Assembly (NCBI RefSeq): GCF_003713065.1
Contig: NZ_CP033433.1
Span: forward strand, 3,907,001-3,971,000
Direction of reading: 5' to 3'
DNA length: 64,000 bases
DNA from: Cohnella candidum
GTDB lineage: Bacteria > Bacillota > Bacilli > Paenibacillales > Paenibacillaceae
The notes beneath the pieces are model-generated. The model was not told the origin of the DNA. It was given only the letters and a program-made list of their open reading frames with translations, and did not search any database. Positions 21,750-27,630 of the stretch are shown in pieces. Within the stretch, counting starts at the first letter, position 1, and each line of letters starts with the position of its first letter. The position numbers and the translations under genes are program-made.

Positions 21750-22019
21750 ATGTGGTTCGGAGGCAAAAAGCACTGCGTCAAAAACATCCGTTCGAAAAAG
21801 GTGAAAACCTTTAACATCGAAAGGGTTAAAGTCAAAAAATTCAACATCAAAAAAGTCAAAGTCAAAAAGTTCAACATCAAAAAAGTCAACGTCAAAAAGT
21901 TCAATGTCGACGTGTTCGACGTTAAAAAAATCCGCGTCAGAAAACACCGTATCGTCAAAGTCGAACATGCGAAAAAACACCGCAAGCACCACAACAAGCA
22001 CCGGAAGCTTCATTGGTAA
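21750..22019 (+). CDS. Lys/His-rich repeat protein, possible spore coat component
   Basis: 89 residues, very basic, no family recognised. After MWFGGKKHC the sequence is an alternating pattern of branched or aromatic and Lys residues (VKVKKFNIKK and variants at about 26-60; unit KKFNI(K/D)xVxV, about 10 residues), then a His/Lys tail (KKHRKHHNKHRKLHW). AGGAAGGGGGTGAAGCAGC precedes the ATG. AAA/AAC-rich codons contrast with the GC-rich neighbours. The pattern and possible sigma-K promoter recall CotG-like spore coat proteins, but this is inference. Confidence 0.65.
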   Translation: MWFGGKKHCVKNIRSKKVKTFNIERVKVKKFNIKKVKVKKFNIKKVNVKKFNVDVFDVKKIRVRKHRIVKVEHAKKHRKHHNKHRKLHW

Positions 22020-22045
22020 TCCCCGGCTAATACCCAATTCCGTTT

Positions 22046-22090
22046 AAGCCCTTTCTCTTCCCTCGGGAAGTCGAAAGGGCCTTTTTTTTG
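22046..22090 (+). terminator. Terminator after the Lys-rich repeat gene
   Basis: AAGCCCTTTC (22046-22055) pairs with GAAAGGGC (22073-22080), with CTTCCC/GGGAAG in between, followed by eight T. Confidence 0.85.
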
Positions 22091-22102
22091 CCTTTCCGGC
22101 GT

Positions 22103-22132
22103 GGATAACGGTGGATAACCGGGTAAATACTG
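22103..22132 (+). promoter_or_regulatory. Sigma-G-like promoter of sspH
   Basis: GGATA (22103-22107), 18 bases, AATACTG (22126-22132), a partial match to GHATR-N17/18-CATWHTA, 19 bases before the start codon of a forespore-type gene. Confidence 0.4.
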
Positions 22133-22150
22133 TGCGAGAGGTGATGACTG

Positions 22151-22360
22151 ATGAACGCTCAAAGAGCGCAAGAAATCGCGGAATCCCCGGAAATGATCGA
22201 TGTCTCTTACTACGGCGTGCCCGTCTACATCCAGCACGTCAACGTGGAGGAAGGGACCGCCAGAATCTTTCAGCGTGAACTTCCGGAAGAGGAGCAAACC
22301 GTCCCACTCGACGCGTTGTCGGAGGAATTCACGACGGAAACGGATCTTCCGTTCGTCTGA
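22151..22360 (+). CDS. sspH: H-type small acid-soluble spore protein
   Basis: 69 residues. MNAQRAQEIAESPEMIDV followed by YYGVPVYIQHVNVEEGTARI is the H-type SASP family signature (SspH). The usual length is about 59; the extra residues form an acidic C-terminus (SEEFTTETDLPFV). Minor spore protein made in the forespore; it does not protect DNA the way alpha/beta SASP do. GAGAGGTGATGACTG precedes the ATG. Convergent with the ABC-F gene. Confidence 0.92.
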   Translation: MNAQRAQEIAESPEMIDVSYYGVPVYIQHVNVEEGTARIFQRELPEEEQTVPLDALSEEFTTETDLPFV

Positions 22361-22372
22361 AGAGACGGGCGT

Positions 22373-24292
22373 TTATTGCCCCGCCATCCATTCTTCGTAC
22401 AAACGGTCCAATCGTTCCTGCAGTTTCTCACGGCTCTCCCAGGCTTTCGCCAATTCAGCGGCATCGGAGGTCGTTCCCGCAATTTCCAGTTCTGCGTCCA
22501 GCCGGCCTAATTCGGCCTCCGTTGCGGAGATCGCCGACTCCAGATCCCGAGCAGCCTCCGTCTTCGCGGCGGGGGCTTTCGCGCGTTTGGCATCGGCTCC
22601 CCCGGCGGAAGTTGCGGCCGGAACGGAAGCGATGACGCGCGTCGCGGATAGATCATCGGCAACGCCAAGCCGCGCGCGTTGCTCCCGGTAATCGTCATAG
22701 TGGCCCAGGAAGCTCGTCAGGCCGCCGTTCCGGACTTCCCAGATCCGCCCGGCGATCCGGTTCATGAAATAGCGGTCGTGAGATACGACAAGCACGGTGC
22801 CCGGGAATTCATCCAAAGCCTCTTCCAACGCCTCGCGGGATACGATGTCGAGATGGTTGGTCGGCTCGTCCAGCAAGAGCAGATTCGGCTTCCGGTGCAT
22901 GAGCAGCGCAAGGCGAAGCCGGGTCCACTCTCCGCCGGAAATCGAGGACAACGATTTGAACACGTCCGGCCCGTAGAACAGCTGCTTGGCCAGCAGCCGC
23001 CTCGCCTCTCCTTCTTCCAATTGCGCCTCTTCCTTGAAGAAGGCCAGGATGCTGGTTTTTCCCCCCGGTTTCTCTTCCTGTCCCAGATAGCCGATTTCGA
23101 CCCTCGCGCCCAGCCTGACTTCGCCGCCGTCCGGCGAAATCTCCCCCAGGAGCAGCTTGAACAGCGTGCTTTTACCGGCGCCGTTGTCCCCGACGATCGC
23201 CGTCTTGTCTCCGTAACGCAGGCTCCCGTCGATGCGGTCTAGAATGGTTCGGGACCCGAAGGACTTCGTTAAGCGCTCGAAGGCGATGACGTCCGTACCG
23301 GAACGGTCGGCCGCGCCCGCCGCGAAATCCGCCGTTTTGGGATCCAGGACCGGGCGTTTGATTTTCTCCATCCGATCCAGCGCTTTGCGCATGGAAGCCG
23401 CCCTCCGGAAAAACTTCTCGTTCCCCCCGATTCGGCCCCACGTTTCCAGTTGCTTGATCGTTTCCTTCATTTTAGCGATTTGCTTCTGCTGTTCCTGATA
23501 CTGGGCAAACTGCCGCAGCAGCCGTTCTTCCTTCTCCTTGACGTATTCCGAATAGGAGGTCAAATAAAGCGATGCTTCACCGTCTTCGATTTCGACGATC
23601 CGGGTGACGACTTTATCCAAAAAGTAGCGGTCGTGGGAGACGATGACGCAGGTGCCGCCGTAATCCCGCAGGTAATCTTCGAGCCATTCGACGCCGCGCA
23701 GGTCCAAATGGTTGGTCGGCTCGTCAAGCAGCAGCAGCGTCGGGCGTTCGATCAGCAGGGAGGCGAGCGCGACTTTCGTTTTCTCGCCGCCCGACAGGGA
23801 GCCGTATCCGCGTTCGAATTGTCCGGCGTCGATCCGCAGCCCCGCCGCGACCTGCGCGATGCGGGCTTCCATCTCGTATCCGCCTCCGTGCTCGAACCGT
23901 TCCTGGGCAGAAGCGTACTGCCTCAGCAGCTCCGTGAGCCGATCGGGGTCACCGGCAAGAGCGGGGTCCGACATCGCTTGCTCCAGCTCCCCCATCCGCT
24001 CCTTCAGCTGAAGCACTTCCCTGTAGCCCCGGGCCAGAATATCATAAACGGCGAGATGCTCTTCCGCTTCCGGGATCTGCTTCAAATAACCGATGCGAGT
24101 GTCTTTGCGGATGGCCAGCTCCCCTTCGTCCGGCCTTTCTTCTCCTGCGATCAAGCGGAGCAGCGTCGTTTTGCCGCATCCATTGCGGCCGATCAGGCCG
24201 ACTCGTCCCCCTTCGGGGATTTCGAAAGTGACTTGTTCCAGCACCAGTTGGGCGCCGTGGTATTTTTTAACGTTTTGGCAGCTTACGATCAT
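22373..24292 (-). CDS. ABC-F family ATPase (ribosome-associated, two nucleotide-binding domains)
   Basis: 639 residues from the ATG at 24292 with TTAGGAGGAACTCTATC upstream. NBD1: Walker A GRNGCGKT (35-42), LSGGE (166-170), LLLDEPTNHLD (about 188-198). A linker of about 80 residues (241-320) is the tRNA-contacting motif. NBD2: Walker A GDNGAGKST (368-376), SISGGEW, LLLDEPTNHLD. A C-terminal coiled coil covers about 575-639. No membrane domain. ABC-F proteins act on the ribosomal E site in translation or antibiotic protection. A leader ORF and terminator precede it. Confidence 0.93.
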   Translation of the reverse strand: MIVSCQNVKKYHGAQLVLEQVTFEIPEGGRVGLIGRNGCGKTTLLRLIAGEERPDEGELAIRKDTRIGYLKQIPEAEEHLAVYDILARGYREVLQLKERMGELEQAMSDPALAGDPDRLTELLRQYASAQERFEHGGGYEMEARIAQVAAGLRIDAGQFERGYGSLSGGEKTKVALASLLIERPTLLLLDEPTNHLDLRGVEWLEDYLRDYGGTCVIVSHDRYFLDKVVTRIVEIEDGEASLYLTSYSEYVKEKEERLLRQFAQYQEQQKQIAKMKETIKQLETWGRIGGNEKFFRRAASMRKALDRMEKIKRPVLDPKTADFAAGAADRSGTDVIAFERLTKSFGSRTILDRIDGSLRYGDKTAIVGDNGAGKSTLFKLLLGEISPDGGEVRLGARVEIGYLGQEEKPGGKTSILAFFKEEAQLEEGEARRLLAKQLFYGPDVFKSLSSISGGEWTRLRLALLMHRKPNLLLLDEPTNHLDIVSREALEEALDEFPGTVLVVSHDRYFMNRIAGRIWEVRNGGLTSFLGHYDDYREQRARLGVADDLSATRVIASVPAATSAGGADAKRAKAPAAKTEAARDLESAISATEAELGRLDAELEIAGTTSDAAELAKAWESREKLQERLDRLYEEWMAGQ

Positions 24293-24343
24293 GATAGAGT
24301 TCCTCCTAAGTGGATTCCCTCCCGGCCGACGCCGAATGTCTGC

Positions 24344-24379
24344 GGAAAACGAAAAAGACGCGGGAAACATCCCGCGCCT
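24344..24379 (-). terminator. Terminator between leader ORF and ABC-F gene (candidate attenuator)
   Basis: Read on the minus strand GGCGCGGGA-TGTT-TCCCGCGTC (24357-24378) forms a nine-pair stem (one G-U in RNA), followed by TTTTTCGTTTT. It lies 52 bases before the ABC-F start. No other promoter is evident between it and the gene, so ABC-F expression would need read-through. Confidence 0.75.
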
Positions 24380-24414
24380 TCGCCTTCACGTATCCGTAGA
24401 GGTCGAGACAGGAA

Positions 24415-24546
24415 TCATTTCGCGATGGGAATAACCGTATGGGCAAAAATGGACAGACTTCTCCCGTCTACCGTCCATTCATGCACGATGCCAGCGGCCT
24501 GTATCGGCTCCCGGCTCAGTTGGTTATTCTCGCATTCGCGATTCAT
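24415..24546 (-). CDS. Short ORF (43 residues) ahead of the ABC-F gene, possible leader peptide
   Basis: MNRECENNQLSREPIQAAGI is the first part; it ends FAHTVIPIAK. AAGGAGGTGGGGCAGG gives an excellent ribosome site with 7-base spacing, and promoter boxes lie directly upstream, so the ORF is very probably translated. No family recognised. Its last codons (VIPIA) contain TCCCATCGCG, which could pair with the 5' arm of the downstream terminator as an antiterminator. It may be a ribosome-stalling leader or an independent small gene. Confidence 0.7.
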   Translation of the reverse strand: MNRECENNQLSREPIQAAGIVHEWTVDGRSLSIFAHTVIPIAK

Positions 24547-24578
24547 CCTGCCCCACCTCCTTCCAGTCAATTGGATAG

Positions 24579-24608
24579 AGCATACCATAAATTGTTGGAA
24601 CCTGGCAA
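24579..24608 (-). promoter_or_regulatory. Sigma-A promoter of the leader ORF/ABC-F unit
   Basis: On the minus strand TTGCCA (24603-24608), 18 bases, TATGCT (24579-24584). Five of six and four of six consensus matches; the leader ORF starts about 33 bases downstream. The -35 overlaps the last bases before the upstream gene's stop. Confidence 0.6.
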
Positions 24609-24611
24609 TCG

Positions 24612-25634
24612 TCAGGACCCGATATAGCGATCGTAGAGGCTTCTGGCTCTGGACGGATTCTCCGTACCCTGAACGAGCACCCGGCCGTCGGGGAAGAGCA
24701 CGAGCCGTTCTCCTTCGGGCAGTTCAGCACGCAACAGGAAAGGATTGCGCGTGATGGTGCAGGACGGAGACAAACGCTGCTCCCATTGCTCCAGATCGAA
24801 CGGCCGCGGACCTTGGATTTGCACCGTTTCACGGCCGCACAGCGTGGACGCTTCCACTGCGTCGGCTGTTAACGCAGGATATTCCTTCGTGCCGCAGGTC
24901 GGACAGCCGGCTTTCGGCCCGGGCAGCTTCAGGTTCATCGAGTGGTAGTGCCACACCTCGAGAGACAGCAGCCCCCCGCGCCGGGCGTCGGTATTCCCCA
25001 CCATGTATTTTAGCGCTTCGATCGCTTGGAATGATGCGATGATATCCACGATGGGCGCGATCACGCCGACCGTATCGCAGGTTTGCCCCCCGCCTCCGTC
25101 ACCGGAACCGATCAGGCATCGCAGGCAGCAGGTCTCACCGGGGACCAGCATCGCGGTCATGCCCTGCGCGCTCACGGCTCCGCCGTATACCAGCGGGATG
25201 CCTCGCTTGAAGCAGGCATCGTTGAGGAGCAGCCGCGTTTGAAAATTGTCCGTTCCGTCCAACACGAGGTCGATTCCGTCCATCAGTTTTTCGATGTTCA
25301 GCGGCGTGACGTCCGAGACGATCGTCTCGAGCACGACCTCCGAATTGATGCGGGAGAGTTTTCGCCCGGCCGCGACCGCTTTGGGCAGCGATTGGGCGAC
25401 GTCTTCCTCGTCGTAGAGCATTTGGCGCTGCAGGTTACTCGGCTCTACGTAGTCGCGGTCAGCCATGCGAAGGGTGCCGACGCCTGCGCGAACCATGTGG
25501 CTCGCAAGCACCGTTCCGAGCGCGCCCATGCCGACGACCAGCACGCGGGAGGAGGATATTTTGCGTTGCCCTTCCGGTCCGATCGGTTTGAACAGCATTT
25601 GCCTGGAGTATCTTTGTTCCGGCGTGATCGGCAT
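24612..25634 (-). CDS. ThiF/MoeB-family adenylyltransferase (E1-like)
   Basis: 340 residues from the ATG at 25634 (AAAGGAAGCTGACCATC upstream). Core E1 features: VVGMGALGTVLASHM (nucleotide loop), ADRDYVEPSNLQRQMLYDE, DGTDNFQTRLLLND, and zinc Cys pairs CLRC and CPTC. A C-terminal part of about 90 residues with LVLFPDGRVLVQGT and ARSLYDRYIG replaces the rhodanese domain of MoeZ-type proteins. It should adenylate the C-terminal Gly of a sulfur carrier, most likely the MoaD-like protein encoded upstream. It could serve molybdopterin, thiamine or thio-modification. Confidence 0.9.
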   Translation of the reverse strand: MPITPEQRYSRQMLFKPIGPEGQRKISSSRVLVVGMGALGTVLASHMVRAGVGTLRMADRDYVEPSNLQRQMLYDEEDVAQSLPKAVAAGRKLSRINSEVVLETIVSDVTPLNIEKLMDGIDLVLDGTDNFQTRLLLNDACFKRGIPLVYGGAVSAQGMTAMLVPGETCCLRCLIGSGDGGGGQTCDTVGVIAPIVDIIASFQAIEALKYMVGNTDARRGGLLSLEVWHYHSMNLKLPGPKAGCPTCGTKEYPALTADAVEASTLCGRETVQIQGPRPFDLEQWEQRLSPSCTITRNPFLLRAELPEGERLVLFPDGRVLVQGTENPSRARSLYDRYIGS

Positions 25635-25702
25635 GATGGTCAGCTTCCTTTCCTGCGCGGGGCGGCGGTTTCGGGACGTTGCGGTCCTGATGGATCGCTC
25701 GC

Positions 25703-25978
25703 TTAACCCCCGGATACCGCCTGAAGCACCCGCAGCTTGTCGCCGGGCCGGATCGGGATGTCGAGGTCGTCCAGCCAAGCGATATTATCGTCATTATAAT
25801 AGAGCAGCACGTGCTCGCGCACTTCGCCCTGTTCGTTATATAGATGCACCTTCAGCAAAGGGTAAGTTTCGACAAGCGTGCGGAGCGCCTCCGCAAGCGT
25901 GCCGGCTTCCAGCGGAAACCGCGTCTTGCCCTTGGTGCAATCGCTGATCAGCAGCGGTACGCTGACTTCAAGCTGCAT
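25703..25978 (-). CDS. MoaD/ThiS-family ubiquitin-like sulfur carrier
   Basis: 91 residues with the beta-grasp pattern and a C-terminal VSGG, whose terminal Gly is the adenylation and thiocarboxylation site. MoaD features: LAEALRTLVETYPLLKVHL and IPIRPGDKLRVLQAVSGG. The E1-like gene is 68 bp downstream and the BNR-repeat gene 6 bp upstream on the same strand, so all three form one operon. No moaE, moaA or thi genes are nearby, so the sulfur acceptor is open. Confidence 0.92.
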   Translation of the reverse strand: MQLEVSVPLLISDCTKGKTRFPLEAGTLAEALRTLVETYPLLKVHLYNEQGEVREHVLLYYNDDNIAWLDDLDIPIRPGDKLRVLQAVSGG

Positions 25979-25984
25979 ACTCGA

Positions 25985-27085
25985 TCAATCCTCCACAACC
26001 CATGGTTTGACGCATAGGATGCGCGACAGCTGGCCCGGCAGCCGGTCCCAAGTGCGGCCGCGGTCGAGCGAGCAAAACACTTCGCCGGAAGTCGTCCCGA
26101 AATAGAGGCCGTAGGGATCGAACGCGTCGATCGTCATGGCGTCGCGAAGCACGCTGACGTGGCGGGGCTCGTCCGGCATCGCGTCCCCGACAGGCGCCCA
26201 GCTCGTGTCGCCTTTGTGCCTGCCGTACACCAGCAATTTGCCTTCGGCAACCGCACGTTGTTCGCTGCTCTCCAGCGGGACGAGGAACAGGTCTCCGTTC
26301 GGCGCCACGACGATCGGGAAACCGAACGGCATGTCGCCTTCCCGCAGCGTGACGCCTTCCTCTATCGTGAACCAGTTATCGCCGCCGTCGTTCGACTGGA
26401 ACACGCCGCCGTGCTCTTGCATGTACATGATGTCGGGATTGAACGGATCCAGCACGATTTTATGCACGCAGAATCCCACGTCTTCCTGCGGTTGACCGGT
26501 CGGCACGCGGGCGAGGCCTTGGTTGCGCGGCGTCCACGTTTCGCCGCCGTCGTCCGTGCGGAACACGCCGACTGCCGAGATGCCGACCCACATCCGTTTC
26601 GGATTCCGGGGGTCGATCAGGATCGTGTGGAGGCACATGCCTCCGGCTCCGGGAAACCAACCCGGCCGGGAGGGGTGCTTCGTCAGGACGTCCAGCTCGC
26701 GCCAAGTCGCGCCGCGGTCGCGGCTGACGAAGATCCCCGCTTCCTCGACGCCGGCGAATACGGTGTCCGGCTCCGAGGGGTGACCGGGGGCGATCTGCCA
26801 AATCCGGTTCAGGCTGAAACCGGACTCCTTCGAGTAAGAGGGGCCGTGTTCGACTTGCGTCCAGCTCTCGCCGAAGTCGTCGGACACGCGGATCGTCGCC
26901 CCGTAAGCGGCATGGGAAGTGCCGGCGTAAATCCGGTTGCCGTGACGGCTGTCCCCGAGCACGCTGTAGACTTCCCAGCCCGGCAGGAAGGGCCCTTTGA
27001 GGCTCCATTCTTTGCGGTTCGCATCTGCTGTGTACATGAATACGCCTTTGTTCGTGCCGACGAGCAAGACCATTCGTTTTGCCAT
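25985..27085 (-). CDS. BNR/sortilin-type beta-propeller protein
   Basis: 366 residues without a signal peptide. Repeated Asp-box motifs SxDxGxTW are visible: SDDFGESWTQ, SRDRGATWRE, TDDGGETWTP, SNDGGDNWFT, SLDRGRTWDR, spaced 45-90 residues, indicating a six- or seven-bladed propeller (WD40/YVTN/BNR-like; often annotated glycosyl hydrolase). Sialidase catalytic residues are not evident, so hydrolase activity is doubtful. It starts the operon with MoaD- and E1-like genes. GGGAGGTTTAAACCAAA precedes the ATG. A 50-bp repeat array lies upstream. Confidence 0.85.
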   Translation of the reverse strand: MAKRMVLLVGTNKGVFMYTADANRKEWSLKGPFLPGWEVYSVLGDSRHGNRIYAGTSHAAYGATIRVSDDFGESWTQVEHGPSYSKESGFSLNRIWQIAPGHPSEPDTVFAGVEEAGIFVSRDRGATWRELDVLTKHPSRPGWFPGAGGMCLHTILIDPRNPKRMWVGISAVGVFRTDDGGETWTPRNQGLARVPTGQPQEDVGFCVHKIVLDPFNPDIMYMQEHGGVFQSNDGGDNWFTIEEGVTLREGDMPFGFPIVVAPNGDLFLVPLESSEQRAVAEGKLLVYGRHKGDTSWAPVGDAMPDEPRHVSVLRDAMTIDAFDPYGLYFGTTSGEVFCSLDRGRTWDRLPGQLSRILCVKPWVVED

Positions 27086-27243
27086 TTTGGTTTAAACCTC
27101 CCGTGGTTGGTGACGGTTCCGGGATGCGTTTTCTCTACCGTTGGAAATTCGTTGGCAGACAGGTGAAATCCTGCCTATGGGAAGGCGGGATATTAGGTAT
27201 TTAAGCGAGTTCGGTGAGGATGTATCAGATTCGGTGGCAGATG

Positions 27244-27630
27244 AGCGAGTAGATTAGCGCGTGTGACGCGCTATTTCGGCGGATTGGCGGGGGAACGCGC
27301 CATTTAGCGCGGGTGGCGCGCTATTTTGGTGGATTGGCGGGAGAGCGAGCAGATTAGCGCGGGTGGCGCGCTATTTCGATGGATTAGCGGAAGAGCGGGC
27401 CGATTAGCGCGGGTGCCGCGCTATTTCGATGGATTAGCGGAAGAGCGGGCCGATTAGCGCGGGTGCCGCGCTATTTCGGCGGATTGGCGGGGGAGCGTGC
27501 CGATTAGCGCGAGTGCCGCGCTATTTCGGAGCAGCAAATAAGGTGCACGAAATTAGTGGACGTGGGACACTATTTCGGCGCTTCGATGGGAGAGCGGGCA
27601 ATTTAGTGGACGTGGGACACTATTTCCGCG
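27244..27630. repeat. Tandem hairpin repeat, family C (eight units, 49-50-bp period)
   Basis: TTAGCGC or TTAGTG begins at 27254, 27304, 27354, 27404, 27454, 27504, 27553 and 27603. Units 1-6 have TAGCGCG-N5-CGCGCTA (seven pairs); units 7-8 have TAGTG...CACTA in the same 19-base frame, so the C-G pair four bases from the end became T-A on both arms. The stretch between hairpins (TTTCG.TGGATT.GCGG..GAGCG.GC) is also conserved. The 612-bp gap 27086-27698 contains nothing else recognisable. Another copy is at 61771-61845. Confidence 0.92.

Follow-up and report, generated by a model that had tools for sequence, protein, structure and literature searches.

How is the ABC-F gene of this locus controlled, given that a promoter, a short ORF and an intrinsic terminator stand in front of it? 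The window analysed here is a 64,000-nucleotide stretch of Cohnella candidum DNA, and the locus lies on its minus strand from 24608 to 22373, in the order promoter, strong ribosome site, 43-codon ORF (uORF), intrinsic terminator and ABC-F gene (Table 1). All of these elements, including the ideal ribosome site, had been named in a preliminary description of the locus, and all are present in the sequence; the range given there, 24344-24608, was correct for the leader, with the ribosome site and start of the ABC-F gene falling just outside. A promoter scan found the leader promoter to be the sole promoter-like site within 22000-27500, with none between the terminator and the ABC-F gene, including the interval 24292-24344, where that description depended on the lack of one.

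The ABC-F protein passes the NCBIfam model NF000355 (ribosomal protection-like ABC-F) with 486 bits against a cut-off of 380, and falls below the NCBIfam cut-offs of EttA, Uup and the named resistance subfamilies. We infer that this ABC-F confers resistance; membership in NF000355 is not proof of it, because a paralog encoded in the same genome passes the model as well. Upstream of the leader (25703-27085, minus strand), genes for a MoaD/SAMP-like small modifier, a MoeB/ThiF-like E1 enzyme and a sialidase-looking repeat protein lie close together, and the window also holds a short ORF of near repeats, VKKFNIKKVKVKKFN, at 21750-22019 on the plus strand.

Table 1. Positions of leader and ABC-F features in the window, from promoter to gene.
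Feature	Position	Strand	Remarks
Leader promoter, extended -10, TTGCCA-18-TGgTATGCT	24579..24608	-	-35 TTGCCA; -10 TATGCT with TG
Shine-Dalgarno (SD) of the uORF, AAGGAGGTG	24554..24562	-	conserved in leader alignment
uORF, 43 codons, peptide MNRECENNQLSREPIQAAGIVHEWTVDGRSLSIFAHTVIPIAK	24415..24546	-	ATG at 24546, TGA 24417-24415; coding selection
P1 5' strand (SD/AUG region of uORF)	24546..24557	-	covarying pairs with 24413-24401
P2/P3 5' strands	24522..24541	-	TCGCGA 24541-24536; GAATAACC 24529-24522
P4 hairpin, GCCGG...GCTGGC	24490..24515	-	93% of cells paired; changes on both sides in 8/8 pairs
P6 hairpin, GACGGGA-NNN-GTCTGTCC	24451..24468	-	nearly invariant at all codon positions
P2/P3 3' strands	24420..24436	-	GGTTATTC 24436-24429; TCGCGA 24425-24420; includes TCCCATCGCG
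P1 3' strand, directly past the uORF stop (post-stop segment)	24401..24413	-	proposed antiterminator strand; covariation and folding
Proposed antiterminator hairpin: post-stop segment and terminator 5' arm, small apical hairpin	24367..24415	-	predicted by folding only
Intrinsic terminator hairpin, 12 pairs, then T run	24354..24381	-	
ABC-F ribosome site and partly complementary upstream segment	24300..24314	-	weak in this genome, stronger in relatives
ABC-F protein, 639 aa, NF000355	22373..24292	-	ATG at 24292

Conservation of the leader and its coupling to ABC-F

The uORF occupies the same position before an orthologous ABC-F gene in some 24 relatives, and when 81 relatives were searched with the leader peptide, the clear matches directly preceded that ortholog. 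Of 300 Paenibacillaceae genomes, 230 were matched at E up to 0.01 by a covariance model (R1) derived from 24 leaders. Co-occurrence was assessed in the 49 family genomes common to the leader and ABC-F searches, with the ABC-F ortholog called at E up to 1e-150: leader and ortholog were both present in 26 and both absent in 22, the one exception (G036) holding a decayed leader remnant without the ortholog. Gain and loss of the leader thus go with gain and loss of the ABC-F gene.

In the remnant itself (L145; G036:C19:124378-124430) the interior of the ORF is deleted and the terminator left, such that little separates the SD and start from the post-stop segment and terminator. The leader had no match on plasmids, and scanning against Rfam turned up no family, whether in the window (gathering thresholds) or in 11 related loci (E values as high as 1).

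The signals flanking the uORF are retained as well. Upstream of the uORF start, at 36-41 nt, most of 99 leaders keep the -10 element, and the leader promoter has a mean score of 9.2, compared with 5.9 for shuffled sequence. A scan assigned a terminator hairpin in 98 of the 99, a few of these assignments being weak, and in most leaders the hairpin and U tract lie ∼12-40 nt past the modelled core. Judged by sequence comparison, the leader is well beyond chance.

Coding selection, RNA fold and proposed switch

Selection on the uORF was estimated from single-base codon differences between close pairs among 81 distinct leaders with no indels from the start to P6, a hairpin within the uORF. The synonymous fraction was 0.62 in the uORF frame vs 0.17 and 0.16 in the other two frames, and this excess indicates that translation of the peptide, and selection on it, extend as far as P6. 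The peptide follows a conserved pattern (MNxExVNNxxSxLPIAMAGIVH...), and uORF length ranges from 43 to 57 codons across leaders. After P6 the frame is lost (distances to the post-stop segment, taken modulo 3, are distributed 65, 17 and 5) and the C-terminal peptides differ; downstream of P6 the sequence is maintained as RNA. In two sister leaders the reading frame is shifted upstream of P6, and P6 is retained nonetheless.

Single-sequence folds of relatives share one architecture, consisting of P1, P2-P3, P4 and a branch of P5 and P6, in which P2-P3 pairs the first uORF codons with the last ones. When the 99 leaders were aligned by fitting to the covariance model, a procedure that favours the model, 37 of 48 pairs had changes on both sides and 93-95% of cells were paired in P1 and P4; a plain MAFFT alignment of 24 leaders gave the same trend, more weakly. 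Cells with changes on both sides numbered 297, vs 115 in shuffles (0 of 500) and 41-93 with the strands slid.

A ribosome-controlled attenuator ahead of the ABC-F gene, the central proposal of the preliminary description, is strongly supported by these comparisons: the ORF is under coding selection, long-range pairs of the RNA covary, terminator and promoter are conserved, and leader and ABC-F co-occur strictly. The antiterminator proposed along with the attenuator did not stand. We consider it probable that the leader is a ribosome-sensing transcription attenuator with P6 most likely serving as a pause hairpin. With no stalled ribosome, the nascent leader would close into a rod-and-branch structure, P1-P6; with P1 closed, the post-stop segment would be held by the ribosome-binding site of the uORF, the terminator would form and ABC-F would stay off. 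A ribosome completing the uORF would cover the post-stop segment, with the same outcome. An antibiotic that stalls the ribosome within the uORF would leave the 5' strands covered and the post-stop segment free, and pairing of this segment with the terminator 5' arm would then let RNA polymerase read through into ABC-F. The invariant P6 would most likely pause RNA polymerase and so keep polymerase and ribosome in step. An antibiotic is presumably the signal of the leader, with its stall site in the uORF, and polymerase pausing is the role that we infer for P6. Weighing against this reading are the lack of coevolution between post-stop segment and terminator arm, the invariance of the P6 pairs, which leaves that hairpin itself unsupported by covariation, its often missing T run and unenriched TTNTTT motif in these leaders, the weak SD hairpin of this genome and two sister leaders that shift frame ahead of P6.

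Folding of 91 leaders, taken as nascent RNA in which the terminator 3' arm has yet to be synthesised, suggests how such a switch may operate. The post-stop segment captured the terminator 5' arm in 4% of leaders when no ribosome was present and in 1% when one sat at the stop, as against 78, 73, 85 and 89% with the ribosome at codons 3, 10, 18 and 27, respectively. Complementarity between segment and arm was −9.1 kcal/mol vs −7.5 kcal/mol for composition-shuffled segments, and no coevolution of the two was detected (matched −9.05, shuffled between genomes −9.00). In these folds, the post-stop segment is predicted to act as the antiterminator. The earlier candidate, pairing of TCCCATCGCG with CGCGGGA of the terminator stem, is possible in this sequence; relatives have not retained the segment (it is absent, for example, in the leaders L020 and L032), and in the conserved fold it pairs instead with TCGCGA at the ORF start (24541-24536). 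This pairing was rejected as antiterminator since it is not conserved, and the folds favour 24413-24401 as the better candidate strand.

The P6 hairpin inside and outside this leader family

P6, which has the sequence ACGGGANNNGUCUGUCC inside the leader ORF, is both invariant and portable. In the present ABC-F group it lies inside the uORF and is translated as (D/N)G(R/I)SLS; none of its 6 pairs has changes on both sides, and its G-U wobble pairs hardly vary. P6 is followed by a T run in 44% of present ABC-F leaders (10% expected) and in 83% of leaders outside the group (19% expected), while the NusG pause motif TTNTTT follows it in 3% of present leaders, where it is not enriched, and in 28% of the others. 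We also considered, as a general feature, a variable helix enclosing P6; it is enriched (8 or more pairs in 8-17% vs 1%) yet not general, and was rejected. In this genome P6 can extend to ATGGAC..GTCCAT followed by five T (24479-24446, minus strand), and resembles a weak terminator within the uORF.

Partial R1 matches far from this ABC-F gene fell on P6 alone. The exact P6 pattern gave 73 matches in 121 family genomes vs 1 for a reversed control pattern, and was far above control in 350 genomes of the class, both within and outside the family. A scan for P6 with a T run across 257 Gb (about 85,000 genomes) returned at least 80 loci, and the 80 listed are confined to Bacilli by their record titles. 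Among the 75 listed loci with a downstream ORF, 52 precede ABC-F, 4 Erm, 4 RlmAII, 3 Mef-like and 3 Mph genes; looser sorting of the listed loci assigned 56 of 74 to ABC-F. In the loci classified, P6 is in sense orientation to the downstream gene. Leaders with a uORF and P6 precede other ABC-F subfamilies as well as Erm (L160), RlmAII (L156), Mef-like (L210), Mph (L221), Cfr (L209), CatB/Vat-like acetyltransferase (L194) and MFS efflux (L192) genes, and in the Erm, Mph and Mef leaders P6 comes after the uORF stop, followed by a T run. In L150-L155 and L188, P6 stands between a common leader peptide, MKKRS..GYSTAVFF, and a RidA-like or GNAT gene.

Other matches are of a different kind. One (L270) is a gcvT terminator arm, probably of a glycine riboswitch and not a resistance leader, and some lie within coding sequence (L226). 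P6-like sequences follow shortly after transposase genes in several genera (L190, L212; probably also L254 and L312), where they are perhaps part of insertion-element ends. The surroundings of the Vga-like paralog in the present genome contained no P6.

Two further observations concern the P6 leaders themselves. The peptide before the RidA-like and GNAT genes, in fuller form MKKRS..xLSxGxGYSTAVFF, is a second conserved leader peptide and recurs with P6 behind it in L150, L153, L154, L155, L188, L189, L191, L200, L203, L204 and L207. In one genus (L193, L195, L197, L198) the ABC-F leader carries a second, partial copy of P6, ACCCGTCTGTCC, downstream of the first, and the CCCGT in this partial copy might base-pair with the ACGGG of the complete one.

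Known systems and alternative explanations

The closest counterpart is vmlR of B. subtilis, in which a uORF within an anti-antiterminator, a pause hairpin, a terminator and an SD hairpin have been established experimentally and a drug-stalled ribosome permits read-through (PMC9226507). The present locus resembles it in its ABC-F gene, uORF, putative pause hairpin, intrinsic terminator and SD-sequestering hairpin (weak in this genome), and in its proposed switch logic, which here is drawn from comparison and folding. A translated uORF (SD, start, synonymous bias) lies upstream of ABC-F with an intrinsic terminator between them, and P1-P5 covariation documents a structure that includes the uORF, its role as anti-antiterminator being predicted from folding. 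The vmlR uORF, however, has 3 codons (MIN), whereas those of the present leaders have 43-57 codons under coding selection, and the vmlR pause hairpin comes after SL-1, whereas P6 here is nested in both the uORF and the anti-antiterminator (PMC9226507). In tlrB (yxjB, RlmAII) of B. subtilis, a leader peptide, a NusG-dependent pause hairpin between uORF and gene, a terminator and an SD hairpin are likewise found, but the gene encodes RlmAII and the peptide is a 9-codon RYR peptide; its pause hairpin is likened to P6 by description only (PMC6851288). In the portions used of the report on cplR, lsaA and vmlR2, ABC-F induction is also uORF-controlled, but the uORFs have 3-4 codons and those portions mention no P6-like element (PMC10201436). 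An ErmD-like leader (MTHSMRLRFPTLN) of B. glycinifermentans (L308) carries P6 and a T run between peptide and terminators, that is, after the leader ORF and not within it as here; through this leader the present one may be likened to the ermD/ermK leader of the Bacillus licheniformis group (Kwak 1991, cited in PMC5418344). Given that experiments have established pause hairpins for both vmlR and tlrB (PMC9226507, PMC6851288) and that the ErmD-like leader carries P6, the mechanism family is already known.

Several other explanations of the leader were weighed against ribosome-sensing attenuation. An independent small protein gene with an ordinary terminator, ABC-F being reached by read-through or from another promoter, would suit the conserved peptide, but this reading is highly improbable: apart from the decayed remnant no copy was found away from ABC-F, as the preliminary description had also required, the frame is lost after P6, covariation pairs the SD with the post-stop segment, and there is no promoter-like site before ABC-F. 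A riboswitch in which the conserved fold is the direct receptor of a drug or metabolite, the ORF being incidental, would suit the multi-branched fold, the invariant unpaired or wobble positions and the fixed sequence of P6. We think it unlikely in view of the strong synonymous bias in the ORF frame and the conserved SD and start, and no single aptamer is shared, since the surroundings of P6 and the leader peptides differ widely. Mainly translational control, with P1 or the ABC-F SD hairpin gating ribosome access and the terminator minor, is likewise improbable; pairing of the ABC-F SD with the segment upstream does exceed expectation (6.25 vs 4.5 nt), but strong U-tract terminators are kept in nearly all leaders and the SD hairpin is weak in this genome, at about 3 pairs.

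The last alternative concerns the role of P6 and not the attenuator as a whole. P6 might be the binding site of a trans-acting factor, either a protein or a specialised RNA-polymerase factor, that sets or reports antibiotic stress for many leaders. All P6 positions are fixed, including G-U wobbles that would be free to vary under plain pairing, the T run is often absent in the Paenibacillus ABC-F group, and the orientation of P6 to downstream genes is consistent with such a site. The enrichment of the T run in other leaders, on the other hand, is like that of pause sites, and vmlR and tlrB have comparable pause hairpins (PMC9226507, PMC6851288), so that a dedicated factor is possible but on the doubtful side, and pausing by P6 remains our preferred reading.

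Beyond this locus, we regard it as an even call whether P6 (ACGGGA-NNN-GUCUGUCC, usually with a T run) represents an RNA control module that is general to the Bacilli and sequence-specific, plugged into unrelated uORF leaders (ABC-F, Erm, RlmAII, Mph, Mef, Cfr, acetyltransferase) and read by RNA polymerase with Nus factors or by another factor, such that one regulatory part would serve many resistance genes. Neither P6 as a shared element nor the Paenibacillus ABC-F leader was found described in Rfam or the open-licence literature, a coverage outside which the original ermD/ermK papers and figures fall; the shared control element is thus provisionally regarded as undescribed.

The leader family is present in most Paenibacillaceae. 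Inducible resistance to ribosome-targeting drugs in Gram-positives has usually been studied leader by leader, and a hairpin shared by leaders from six or more unrelated families of resistance genes would supply one testable part for many such inducible systems. P6 would serve as a sequence-only signature for new drug-responsive genes, and the question it poses is what reads it.
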